A DNA stretch of 64,000 bases, taken from Virgibacillus necropolis. Its GTDB lineage: Bacteria; Bacillota; Bacilli; Bacillales; Amphibacillaceae. The notes beneath the pieces were generated by a model. It saw only the letters and a list, made by a program, of their open reading frames with translations, did not search any database and was not told where the DNA came from. How positions within the stretch are numbered: the stretch's first letter is position 1; the number at the start of each line of letters is the position of its first letter. This document shows positions 15,672 through 30,693 of this stretch, one piece after another. Where the stretch lies: contig NZ_CP022437.1 of the NCBI RefSeq assembly GCF_002224365.1, forward strand, positions 2,728,001 to 2,792,000, in the 5' to 3' direction. Both the position numbers and the translations under genes were made by a program.

Positions 15672-15815
15672 CGTTTAATCCCCTTTTTAAAAGTTATGTA
15701 TATCTGTAATGCTAGCATAATTTGAATAATTATGGCTACTTAGCAGACTAGATTTTTACACTATTTTTTGCTATACTACGTTGGATATTTTAAAACGTAA
15801 TATGGAGTGCTGACA

Positions 15816-17288
15816 ATGAATGACCAATCACAAACACCATTATTCAATGGATTATTAAATCATATAGAAAAAAGACCAATGCAATTTCACATTCCTGGAC
15901 ACAAACAAGGAAAAGCAGTTGAGGAAGAATTTCGAAACTTTATGGGAGAGAATGCGTTTAAAATAGATCTTATTAATATTGAACCACTAGATGATCTACA
16001 TCACCCACATGGCATGATTAGGGATGCCCATGTACTTGCAGCAGAAGCATTTGGAGCAGATTATACATACTTTTCTGTTCAAGGAACTAGTGGTGCGATT
16101 ATGACAATGGTATTAAGTGTATGTAGTCCTGGGGATAAAATAATTGTACCGAGAAATGTTCATAAATCGGTAACTTCAGCAATCATTTTTTCAGGAGCAA
16201 CACCTATTTTTATTCATCCAGAACTGGATCATAGATTGGGGATTTCCCATGGTATTACCCCCACCGCGGTCCGACATGCATTAGAAGTGCACCCTGATGC
16301 GAAAGCGGTATTAGTCATTAACCCAACATATTTTGGAATTGTCGCTGATCTGCAGGAAATAGTAGAAGTTTCTCATAGCTATGATATACCAGTATTAGTG
16401 GATGAGGCTCACGGTGTTCACATTCACTTCCATGACAAACTACCTCTTTCATCCATGCAGGCAGGTGCTGACTTGGCCGCTACAAGTGTTCATAAATTGG
16501 GAGGTTCCCTTACGCAAAGCTCTGTCCTGAATTTGAAAGGAAACAGGGTGTCACATGAACGCGTCCAAACTGTGATGTCAATGTTGACGACTACATCTAC
16601 CTCCTATATATTATTGGCTTCTTTGGATGTTGCTAGAAAACGACTAGCTACAAGTGGGTTCGAATTAGTTGAATACGCAATAAATCTAGCAAACCGGGCT
16701 CGACATGCAATAAACAAAATCCCCCACTTATATTGTGTTGGAAACGAAATTGTAGGTAGTGAAGCAATATATGACTTTGATCCAACGAAATTAATTATAT
16801 CAGTAAAAGATCTAGGAATTACTGGCTACGATGCAGAAGTTTGGCTACGAGAAAACTACGCAATCGAAGTAGAATTATCCGACTTATACAACCTTCTTTG
16901 CATCATTACACCAGGTGACACTATGGAAACGGTACATGTCTTAGAAACCGCATTAAACCAAATGGCTAAGGATAGATTAAACCACCGTGCTGCAAAGGAA
17001 ATAACAGTATCTGTACCGGAAATACCCTTACTTGCCCTATCACCACGTGATGCATTTTATGCCGAAACGGAAGTAATTTCTTTTTCAAAATCAGCTGGAA
17101 GAATTAGTGCAGAATCAATTATGGTGTACCCACCTGGAATACCTATTTTCATTCCAGGAGAAATAATAACAGAGGAAAACATAGCATACATTCATAAAAA
17201 TATAAATAACGGTCTACCTGTACAGGGTTTACAAGATGAATCCTTAGAGAACATACACGTTATTAAAGAACATCGGCCGTTTAAATAA
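15816..17288 (+). CDS. speA: Arginine decarboxylase (SpeA, Orn/Lys/Arg decarboxylase fold type I)
   Basis: PLP enzyme, 490 aa, giving agmatine for polyamine synthesis. Motifs: FHIPGHKQGK at the start, VQGTSGAIM, VLVDEAHGVH, and ATSVHKLGGSLTQ, whose Lys forms the Schiff base; the C-terminal domain has VYPPGIPIFIPGE. The size is that of the short Bacillus SpeA, not the large E. coli forms. The ATG at 15816 is preferred to the GTG at 15807 because GGAG is eight bases before it. As in B. subtilis, SR1 lies directly downstream on the opposite strand. Confidence 0.9.
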   Translation: MNDQSQTPLFNGLLNHIEKRPMQFHIPGHKQGKAVEEEFRNFMGENAFKIDLINIEPLDDLHHPHGMIRDAHVLAAEAFGADYTYFSVQGTSGAIMTMVLSVCSPGDKIIVPRNVHKSVTSAIIFSGATPIFIHPELDHRLGISHGITPTAVRHALEVHPDAKAVLVINPTYFGIVADLQEIVEVSHSYDIPVLVDEAHGVHIHFHDKLPLSSMQAGADLAATSVHKLGGSLTQSSVLNLKGNRVSHERVQTVMSMLTTTSTSYILLASLDVARKRLATSGFELVEYAINLANRARHAINKIPHLYCVGNEIVGSEAIYDFDPTKLIISVKDLGITGYDAEVWLRENYAIEVELSDLYNLLCIITPGDTMETVHVLETALNQMAKDRLNHRAAKEITVSVPEIPLLALSPRDAFYAETEVISFSKSAGRISAESIMVYPPGIPIFIPGEIITEENIAYIHKNINNGLPVQGLQDESLENIHVIKEHRPFK

Positions 17289-17314
17289 ATTACTATTAAC
17301 TTTTTCCTAATACT

Positions 17315-17356
17315 AAAAAAGGAGTTGCATTTTATATTATGCAACTCCTTTTTTAC
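17315..17356. terminator. Bidirectional terminator of speA and the SR1-like RNA
   Basis: 16-bp stem AAAAAAGGAGTTGCAT with its complement and an 8-base loop. It is symmetrical, so it can end transcripts from both sides. Confidence 0.9.
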
Positions 17357-17359
17357 TAT

Positions 17360-17458
17360 TTATTTACAAGTCGGACAAGCGCCATAAAGGGTTGTTACTT
17401 TTTCATCATCAAATTGTTCAATAATTTGTTGACAGTCTTGACAAATGATAGTTCCCAT
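17360..17458 (-). CDS. sr1P: SR1P, GapA-binding peptide
   Basis: 32-aa peptide starting MGTIICQDCQQIIEQF and continuing DDEKVTTLYG, with CQDC and CPTC pairs. This matches the conserved start and the DEKVTTLYG core of B. subtilis SR1P, which binds glyceraldehyde-3-phosphate dehydrogenase GapA and promotes its contact with RNase J1. AAGGAG lies nine bases before the ATG. The C-terminus ends at the second Cys pair and is shorter than the 39-aa B. subtilis form. The Cys pairs could bind a metal; that is inference. Confidence 0.88.
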   Translation of the reverse strand: MGTIICQDCQQIIEQFDDEKVTTLYGACPTCK

Positions 17459-17499
17459 TCAGCCCAACTCCTTCAAAATTATTATGATTTCGTATAATC

Positions 17500-17528
17500 A
17501 TTATAATGTGTCACATTAATAAATTCAA
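17500..17528 (-). promoter_or_regulatory. SR1 promoter with 15-bp palindromic operator
   Basis: Minus strand: TTGAAT (17523-17528), a 17-base spacer and TATAAT (17500-17505). The spacer and the edge of the -10 carry a perfect palindrome TAATGTG-T-CACATTA (17504-17518). In B. subtilis the SR1 promoter is repressed by CcpN, and the plus-strand TGTGTCACATT agrees at all but one position with the CcpN consensus I recall (TRTGHYATAYW). Confidence 0.65.
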
Positions 17529-17593
17529 CCTTTAATTAGTATAACTTATTCATTTATAATACATACTATTGTTTTATACAATAAATAGTTCAT

Positions 17594-17680
17594 TAGAAAA
17601 CGTGACATTAGCCAAACCTTTGGGCGAGTGCCTAGTTGGTACTTATGCAGAAAGAAATATGGATATATTTTCTTTACTGC
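17594..17680 (+). repeat. Family 3 intergenic repeat (copy b, divergent)
   Basis: TTAGAAAACGTG, GCCAAACCTTTGGGC, CCTAGTTGGTACTTATGCAG and a terminal hairpin with GCAG...CTGC ends, parallel to copies at 11736-11820 and 40853-40941 but more diverged. It runs into the terminator of the deacetylase gene. An open frame across it (17569-17763) is not coding. Confidence 0.65.
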
Positions 17681-17681
17681 T

Positions 17682-17711
17682 AAAAAAACAGACACCCAAG
17701 TATGAGTGTCC
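17682..17711 (-). terminator. Probable terminator of the deacetylase gene
   Basis: Minus-strand hairpin with GACAC/GTGTC arms (17691-17695, 17706-17710) followed by seven T. Confidence 0.5.
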
Positions 17712-17723
17712 TATCGGTGTCCA

Positions 17724-18635
17724 TTATTTTGTTTTAATTGCATGTGGATCAACAATTTCATAACCTTGATCACGAAGGCCTAATACGATGTTTTTCAGAG
17801 CCTTAGCTGTCCATTCCCGGTCATGCATTAAAAGATTAGCACCTGGCTTAAGTAGACTGTACGTAATGTCAATTTCTGGAGCTTTACCTGTAACCATTGC
17901 TTCAGTTAGTTTTTTAGCATCCATGTAGGGTTCAAAGTAATCATATCCGTATGACCAATTCATTAATATCATACCTTCTTCATGTGCAAGTCGTTTCGTA
18001 TAATCTGTATTTGCTCCATTGGGGGCACGGAAAAATAGTGGCTTTTCACCGATTATTTCTTCTACTGTATTATTAAGCTGAAGAATTTCTTCCTTTTGTT
18101 CTTCCTGTGATATATCAGGTAAAAATGGATGGCTATATGTATGGTTACCAATCATAAAACCCATGTCATGAATCTTTTTCAACTTCTTCTTCTCCTCAGG
18201 CGTATCTAAAAAGTGACCATTAACAAAGAAGATTGCACCTGCATCTAATTCTTTTAATGTATTTGCCATTTCCACTGCATATTTATCTGGTGCATCGTCA
18301 ATTGTAAGCAATACAACTTTTTCATTTATAGATTCATTCAATGGTTGAACTGACCAATTTTTTTGGTTAATTTTATATTTTGGTTCTGTAATTGCAGGTG
18401 CAGTAGAGGCGACCTCTTCTTCTTCTTCTTCTTTTTCTTTATCTTTTTCTGTCTTCCCTGTTTTTTCTTCTTGTTTATTTTTATTCTCCTGCGATTCTTC
18501 TTTTTCCTTTTCTTGATCTTTATCTTTTTCTTCCTTCTGATTTTCTGAATCTCCACTTACAGATGACTCTTCACTCGAGCATGCACTCATAAGCGCAACA
18601 AGCAATAACAAACAAATAATAGCTAATTTTTTCAA
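17724..18635 (-). CDS. Polysaccharide deacetylase lipoprotein (NodB domain)
   Basis: 303 aa. Lipoprotein signal with lipobox LMSAC (Cys about 19), a low-complexity Lys/Glu linker (about 25-75), then a NodB domain with LLTIDDAP (metal Asp pair), GNHTYSHP (metal His pair), FFRAPNG and LLMHD. It probably removes acetyl groups from peptidoglycan or another wall glycan at the outer membrane face; the substrate is not shown. The start is TTG at 18635 with AGGGGG eight bases upstream. The repetitive linker makes frameshift errors likely, but the frame is open throughout. Confidence 0.88.
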   Translation of the reverse strand: MKKLAIICLLLLVALMSACSSEESSVSGDSENQKEEKDKDQEKEKEESQENKNKQEEKTGKTEKDKEKEEEEEEVASTAPAITEPKYKINQKNWSVQPLNESINEKVVLLTIDDAPDKYAVEMANTLKELDAGAIFFVNGHFLDTPEEKKKLKKIHDMGFMIGNHTYSHPFLPDISQEEQKEEILQLNNTVEEIIGEKPLFFRAPNGANTDYTKRLAHEEGMILMNWSYGYDYFEPYMDAKKLTEAMVTGKAPEIDITYSLLKPGANLLMHDREWTAKALKNIVLGLRDQGYEIVDPHAIKTK

Positions 18636-29025: not shown

Positions 29026-30693
29026 ATGAAATTTGTAAAGAATGATCAAACAGCAGTATTTTCATTGGGTGGATTAGGAGAAATTGGAAAGAACACATAC
29101 GCTGTCCAATTTCAGGATGAAATTATATTAATCGATGCAGGAATTAAATTTCCTGAGGATGAACTATTAGGAATTGATTACGTAATTCCCGATTATACCT
29201 ATTTAATACAAAACCAAGATAAAATTAAGGGCCTTATTGTCACACATGGTCATGAAGACCATATTGGCGGAATTCCTTACCTTTTACGCGAGATTAATAT
29301 ACCTATCTATGCAGGTAAGCTGGCACTTGGATTAATACGAAATAAATTAGATGAGCATGGTTTATTACGCAAAGCAAAATTACACCCGATACAAGAAGAC
29401 GATATAATTAAATTCCGAAAAACGTCTGTATCCTTTTTCCGCACTACACATAGTATTCCGGATTCTTATGGGGTAGTTGTTAAAACACCACCTGGTAATA
29501 TTGTGCATACTGGAGATTTCAAATTTGACTTTACACCAGTTGGCGAACCAGCCAACATTGCCAAGATGGCTGAAATTGGTAAAGAAGGCGTGTTATGTCT
29601 TCTCTCTGATAGCACGAACAGTGAAGTTCCAGGATTTACAATGTCTGAACGTGTCGTTGGTAGCAACATTAACGATATATTTGGTCGGGTAAATGGCAGA
29701 TTAATATTCGCTACATTTGCATCAAATATATATAGATTGCAACAGGTTATCGAATCAGCTGTAAAGTATAATCGTAAAGTTGCGGTCTTTGGACGTAGTA
29801 TGGAATCATCCATAGCTATTGGGCAAGAATTAGGATATATCAATGCACCAAAGGAAACGTTTATTGATGCACATCAAATCAACCGTCTTCCAGCACATGA
29901 AATAGTAATACTTTGTACAGGCTCTCAAGGTGAACCAATGGCAGCATTATCACGAATTGCTAATGGAACACATAGACAGATTCAGACAATTCCTGGTGAT
30001 ACAGTTGTATTTTCATCGTCACCGATTCCAGGTAATAATGTAAGTGTTAGTCGTATCATCAACAAGTTATACCGTGCTGGATCTGATGTAATCCATGGCC
30101 CATTAAGTAATATTCATACATCAGGACATGGAAGTCAAGAAGAACAAAAACTTATGCTCCGTTTAATTAGACCTAAATACTTTATGCCAATCCATGGTGA
30201 GTATCGTATGTTAAAAGAACACACAAAACTCGCAGAAGCATGTGAGGTAAAACCTGAAAACTGTTTTATTATGGATATTGGTGATGTATTAGCGCTAGGC
30301 AAGGATAATGCAATGGTTGCAGGCAAAATACCTTCAGGATCGGTTTATGTCGATGGTAGTGGGATTGGAGATATCGGTAACATTGTGCTACGCGACAGAC
30401 GAATACTTTCAGAAGAAGGTCTTGTAATCGTAGTTGTAAGCATCGATATGAAGGAGTTCAAGATCTCTGCTGGACCTGATATCATTTCACGTGGATTCGT
30501 ATACATGCGTGAGTCAGAGGACCTTATTAACGAAGCCCAAAAGCTCGTTTCCACTCACCTAAATAAAGTGATGGAAAGAAGAACTACACAGTGGTCTGAA
30601 ATTAAAAATGAAATTACGGATACAATCGCACCATTCTTATTTGAAAAGACAAAACGTCGACCAATGGTATTACCAATTATTATGGAAGTGTAA
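29026..30693 (+). CDS. rnjA: Ribonuclease J1
   Basis: 555 aa metallo-beta-lactamase/beta-CASP nuclease with endo- and 5'-3' exonuclease activity, central to mRNA decay and rRNA 5' maturation. Metal motif [10 protein letters not shown] (about 73-82), FGRSMESS of the beta-CASP domain, SSSPIPGN, and [10 protein letters not shown]. The length matches B. subtilis RNase J1 (YkqC). In B. subtilis SR1P and GapA modulate this enzyme; an SR1P gene is at 17360. Confidence 0.97.

Follow-up and report, generated by a model that had tools for sequence, protein, structure and literature searches.

SR1 of Bacillus subtilis is a small RNA that acts both as a base-pairing regulator, blocking translation of ahrC, and as the mRNA of a peptide, SR1P. 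Reviews report that SR1P binds GapA and raises RNase J1 activity through GapA, and that the B. subtilis SR1P-GapA contact involves helices 1 and 14, with Lys332 being decisive (PMC8152036, PMC7430163). According to the first of these, nine SR1P homologues were tested; eight made up for the loss of sr1 in B. subtilis, and most of the nine bound the GapA of that species (PMC8152036). For the antisense function, one paper places the start of SR1-ahrC pairing in the left arm of the terminator (PMC8464778), and another describes conservation of the pairing with kinA mRNA as limited to nine Bacillus species (PMC8501984).

We analysed a similar locus in Virgibacillus necropolis. The window, meaning the whole stretch of DNA analysed, spans 64,000 nucleotides (NZ_CP022437.1, positions 2,728,001 to 2,792,000), and coordinates below are positions within it. 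As in B. subtilis, CcpN-like boxes lie upstream of and overlap the promoter, the open reading frame carries the MGTI, CxxC and EKVTTLY motifs, and there is a terminator and a convergent speA gene. The two loci differ in the length of SR1P (39 amino acids in B. subtilis, 32 here) and in the sequence of the terminator arm. The peptide carries CPTC, whereas B. velezensis and its relatives have a C-terminus of the CCGQCQC type, and the ahrC pairing reported for B. subtilis SR1 was undetected here, in what is a weak test. Based on the Pfam and Rfam matches, the gene neighbourhood and the selection on the frame, the locus is very probably the orthologue of B. subtilis SR1. The gene is an expected, ordinary and well-conserved SR1/SR1P copy, and its value is comparative, for a Virgibacillus/Oceanobacillus-like clade.

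The SR1P frame and the SR1 RNA

The SR1P coding frame (17360-17458, minus strand, stop codon included) encodes 32 amino acids, MGTIICQDCQQIIEQFDDEKVTTLYGACPTCK. The first-pass annotation had read this frame as SR1P (MGTIICQDC...DEKVTTLYG) and had proposed a search of SR1P homologues as a check; the frame reads as written there, and the profile search confirmed the assignment, with a match to Pfam PF13790 (SR1P) that scored 59.2 bits (cut-off 26; E 4.4e-16). A search of NCBIfam profiles with SR1P gave no match at E 0.01. A Shine-Dalgarno-like sequence, GAAGGAG (17468-17474, minus strand), lies 9 nt before the ATG; across 25 aligned sequences, that of the window among them, the second of its central Gs hardly varies.

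To describe the clade, we used a set of 33 members, consisting of the window, 28 loci from its family and four named loci, two of which (L066 and L067) duplicate the contigs of L049 and L043; L063 was excluded, having been missed by the search pattern. Between pairs of these members, which are non-independent, single-base codon differences were synonymous in 4930 cases and nonsynonymous in 1419, giving an omega of about 0.076. Judged by these codon differences, the SR1P frame is under strong purifying selection.

The surrounding RNA was likewise recognised as SR1, in agreement with the earlier reading. The Rfam family RF02376 (antisense_SR1) matched positions 17494-17314 over the full model (1-210), with 51.6 bits against a gathering score of 45, corresponding to a predicted transcript of 181 nt (17314-17494, minus strand). 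This RNA has a fold z score of -4.1, and none of 200 dinucleotide shuffles folded as well, with the terminator accounting for much of the effect. The Rfam match suggests an RNA start at 17494, the sixth base past the -10 element.

The locus had also been described as having its own promoter and a terminator shared with speA. The terminator (17314-17355) has a stem of 17 pairs, and two terminator-like sites were found in 17200-17760, where 0.2 were expected. The terminator is symmetric, with T-runs on either strand, and so is able to end speA transcripts as well; the speA stop codon is at 17288. The predicted sigma-A-type promoter, TTGAAT-17-TATAAT (17500-17528, minus strand), did not stand out in a scan, as three promoter-like sites were found in 17200-17760 and 3.4 were expected from shuffles; support for it comes from the -10 pattern, which is present in 31 of the 33 clade members, and from the CcpN-like boxes around it in most of them. 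A short RNA would be transcribed from its own promoter. The chance level of the promoter scan speaks for a chance open frame within an intergenic region holding a terminator. However, the Pfam and Rfam scores, the omega of about 0.08 and the order-wide spread of SR1P refute that explanation, and we give it next to no chance.

Two other features of the RNA concern its folding. The terminator's right arm, CAACTCCTT (17327-17319, minus strand), can pair over 9 bases with the Shine-Dalgarno region of SR1P, AAGGAGTTG (17473-17465, minus strand); this complementarity may be due to chance and, by eye, is not common to a close relative (L050). A helix that joins the CPTC codons to the Shine-Dalgarno region in the fold of this SR1 was dropped, being absent from the consensus structure of 25 sequences.

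CcpN-like boxes and the roles of the RNA

Two boxes resembling TRTGHYATAYW, the presumed consensus of the CcpN site, are present at the promoter, each with one mismatch: TGTGACACATT (17505-17515, minus strand) overlaps the -10 element, and TAAGTTATACT (17538-17548, minus strand) lies upstream of the -35 element. A literature search for this CcpN consensus found no source. Across the whole window such boxes occur at chance frequency (82 found, 80 expected), which counts against CcpN control. The position of these two boxes is conserved within the clade. Allowing one mismatch at most, 31 of the 33 clade members have the downstream box within the 80 nt that precede the start codon, compared with 8% of mononucleotide shuffles, and in 26 of those 31 it ends on the first base of the -10 element. 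The upstream box is present in 32 of 33 members (6.7% in mononucleotide shuffles), starting 41-43 nt before the -10 element in 27 of the 32. Exact matches are found in 20 (downstream) and 21 (upstream) of the 33.

The genome also has ccpN, a gene for a 209-amino-acid protein that matches the NCBIfam equivalog NF053704 with 342.5 bits against 260 and precedes a Kinase-PPPase gene. Exact CcpN-like boxes, one on each strand, occur in the 300 nt upstream of a second GAPDH gene (locus L034), presumably gapB by its neighbours, and none were found upstream of gapA, which follows a DeoR-like repressor gene that is cggR by position. Because the two boxes are kept in most relatives and ccpN is present, expression of SR1 during gluconeogenesis is likely: SR1 would probably be repressed by CcpN while glucose is used and released in gluconeogenesis.

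We next consider which role of the RNA the clade has kept. As its B. subtilis counterpart does, this SR1 RNA could also prevent translation of ahrC by base-pairing. The genome has an argR/ahrC gene, and two papers report that both SR1 functions are conserved in the homologues tested (PMC8501984, PMC8464778). However, pairing with ahrC, tested with duplexfold in 26 of 31 genomes (start-finding missed five ahrC genes), gave no signal: the mean z score was +0.28, and in the window 27 of 40 shuffles paired as well as the real sequence. This test is insensitive, since none of four B. subtilis-group controls stood out (z scores of +0.33, -0.96, -0.32 and -1.28). A longest-helix test of the same 26 genomes was similar, with 46 of 60 shuffles as good in the window and no other non-control genome below 7 of 60; it too is insensitive, as only two of the four controls stood out (48, 2, 1 and 46 of 60). 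In addition, the 3' part of SR1 has no sequence conservation in 25 aligned sequences: past the SR1P stop codon the RNA is unconserved except as a terminator, with compensatory changes. We consider an additional ahrC-blocking role rather unlikely here.

Since the 3' RNA is unconserved and ahrC pairing in B. subtilis is reported to begin in the left arm of the terminator, the mRNA role looks, from the alignment, better conserved here than the antisense role, and SR1 RNA in this clade would act mainly as the mRNA of SR1P. The clade keeps the peptide and the paired promoter boxes but not the 3' antisense part, a pattern that points to the mRNA role as the more general of the two.

GapA, RNase J1 and the four cysteines

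The analysis establishes the identity of the locus, the selection on its coding frame, and the architecture of its promoter, and shows that the genome has ccpN, gapA, rnjA and a second GAPDH gene. Judging by its homologues, the peptide would bind GapA, the GAPDH of glycolysis, and would raise the help that GapA gives to RNase J1; SR1P, GapA and RNase J1 would together couple RNA decay to carbon supply.

The peptide had been called an intact GapA-binding peptide, a claim that finds no support in the GapA of this genome. The B. subtilis numbering of Lys332 may or may not include the initial Met, so we looked at positions 332 and 333, counted from the C-terminus; in the GAPDH structure 1gd1, residue 332 is the K of SKGL. 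The GapA of the window genome ends in IKNQGL, with N and Q at 332 and 333 and a Lys at 331. By a hand tally, Lys is found at 332 or 333 in 22 of 27 SR1P-bearing genomes examined; those without it are the window genome, G302, G326, G343 and G411. Lys is also found at one of these positions in three of the four SR1P-less genomes for which GapA was seen (of nine such genomes). Thus, the residue does not track SR1P.

The missing Lys is one reason to ask whether SR1P acts here on a partner other than GapA, perhaps as a metal-binding or redox-sensitive module. A second is the cysteines. The first-pass annotation had presented the short C-terminus with a second Cys pair, CPTC, as features of this copy. 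Both are present, but they are traits of the clade: CPxC is found in 28 of the 33 clade peptides, whose lengths range from 32 to 38 amino acids. Among the 77 SR1P peptides found in loci, 70 have a C-terminal CxxC and the other seven C-x1-4-C; the pattern used to find them demanded the first CxxC, and many loci were best-scoring, so this sample is uninformative on loss of the first pair. In 18 members, three of the four cysteines are invariant and one is nearly so, placing them among the most conserved residues, and they are still present in five divergent members. These divergent SR1P-like proteins (L161-L165, from five family genomes) keep two Cys pairs, the second being Cx3C in four of the five. 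A third reason is that the predicted fold resembles a site in PerR described in a PDB title as a Zn(Cys)4 structural redox switch. On the other side, the remaining family signature, EKVTTLY, is kept, and the homologues mentioned above mostly compensated for the loss of sr1 (eight of nine) and for the most part bound the B. subtilis GapA (PMC8152036). We regard a different partner as quite improbable, and GapA remains the preferred one.

The predicted structure points to what the cysteines might do. The AlphaFold model of SR1P (pLDDT 84.6, pTM 0.44) has strands at residues 2-6, 12-16 and 22-26, the first and third each being followed by a CxxC. A Foldseek search with this model gave no match at E 0.001, and the first 30 matches were all Fur, PerR or Zur chains (TMq 0.52-0.68, best E 0.4). 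In VIA, Z was at most 2.6, over the C-terminal stretch that holds the Zn(Cys)4 site in Fur-family chains, with 13 of 16 rows being Fur-family and three ribosomal. The order strand-CxxC-strand-strand-CxxC is the same as in the Fur/PerR/Zur site, as is the sequence pattern IICxxC...LYGxCxxC. In contrast to those proteins, SR1P has no DNA-binding domain and about 18 fewer residues between the two Cys pairs.

Sequence profiles gave weaker indications. A PDB search with the single SR1P sequence returned nothing below E 0.6, and one with an 18-sequence SR1P profile picked up C. jejuni Fur in two entries at E 0.009, although the two stretches matched are each weak when taken singly. In hhalign, SR1P scored 70% against the three Fur-family proteins of the genome; against single proteins the values were 16.5% for PerR, 5% for Fpg and 0.1% for RNase J1, so that the like-for-like margin is modest. 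SR1P members matched several zinc-ribbon families in Pfam weakly (E 0.001-1), and Fur was not singled out, being absent among the best 25 of 26 families. The likeness is weaker with the SR1P of B. velezensis: the model headed by that sequence has three similar strands and a short C-terminal helix (pLDDT 78), but in Foldseek a ribosomal chain ranks first, and no Fur-family probability exceeds 0.3.

Overall, SR1P resembles the Zn(Cys)4 site of Fur, PerR and Zur in its four cysteines, its predicted fold and, weakly, its profile matches, a modest new structural idea. The peptide may take the form of a minimal zinc module with four cysteines; zinc binding is plausible, and descent from Fur is only a possibility. 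We propose tentatively, thinking it somewhat more doubtful than probable, that SR1P is a minimal Zn(Cys)4 module that stands on its own and is possibly a reduced relative of the C-terminal zinc site in Fur/PerR/Zur, in which zinc or thiolate oxidation would decide folding and GapA binding. If so, the link that SR1P makes from carbon to RNA decay would also read metal or redox state, and the CxxC-CxxC pattern offers a simple, testable idea about its chemistry. Our search of literature listings found no account of SR1P zinc or cysteine chemistry or of a likeness to zinc ribbons or Fur, which may be in print (Gimpel 2017; the 2012 homologue survey), and the word zinc is absent from the review PMC8152036.

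Gene neighbourhood and distribution

The convergent neighbour of SR1 is a speA-like Orn/Lys/Arg decarboxylase gene (15807-17288, plus strand; Pfam PF01276, E 1.8e-109). That speA is the same neighbour as in B. subtilis had been pointed out before, and is borne out: of 32 loci retrieved by searching for speA, 19 carry SR1P on the other strand, past the end of speA, including those of Virgibacillus, Oceanobacillus, Halobacillus, Thalassobacillus, Aeribacillus (1.8 kb away), Priestia, Neobacillus, Evansella, Alkalihalophilus, B. velezensis and B. siamensis. The other 13 speA loci do not have SR1P in this place. They comprise all five from Gracilibacillus, two from Paenibacillus, those of Chryseomicrobium, Tetzosporium and Chengkuizengella, two from bins of Tepidibacillus (on a contig of 4.3 kb) and Lachnospiraceae, and L094, where the speA match is cut short. 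The five Gracilibacillus loci (L069, L070, L071, L074 and L075) keep the speA-pdh neighbourhood, with SR1P undetected in each.

The order of genes in the neighbourhood is suhB-yktB-speA-(SR1)-pdhDCBA-def. The first-pass annotation had noted rnjA, encoding RNase J1, about 12 kb away and had connected it with SR1P. The position is right (29026-30693, about 11.5 kb from SR1P), but the connection is not upheld, since the arrangement speA-pdhDCBA-def-rnjA is also found at two loci where SR1P is undetected (L091 and L092, from Chryseomicrobium and Tetzosporium, the two loci whose fetched stretch reaches rnjA). We conclude that the order of these genes and the nearby rnjA are inherited gene order.

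A single copy of SR1P was found in its own 4.34 Mb genome. Across the order, it was found in 247 of 299 sampled genomes and in 103 of 117 genera; within the family, 94 of 146 genomes have it, 89 of them over the cut-off. Certain genomes of the family contain more than one SR1P match, with two or three each (G402, G426). PMC8152036 gives the range of SR1P as the order Bacillales, which fits the sampled distribution; a narrower range published in the same year is too narrow. Elsewhere in the window, on the minus strand, are two matches to the Rfam Bacillaceae-1 RNA (RF01690), at 39853-39786 and 53337-53269, scoring 65.3 and 45.5 bits, where the gathering score is 35.
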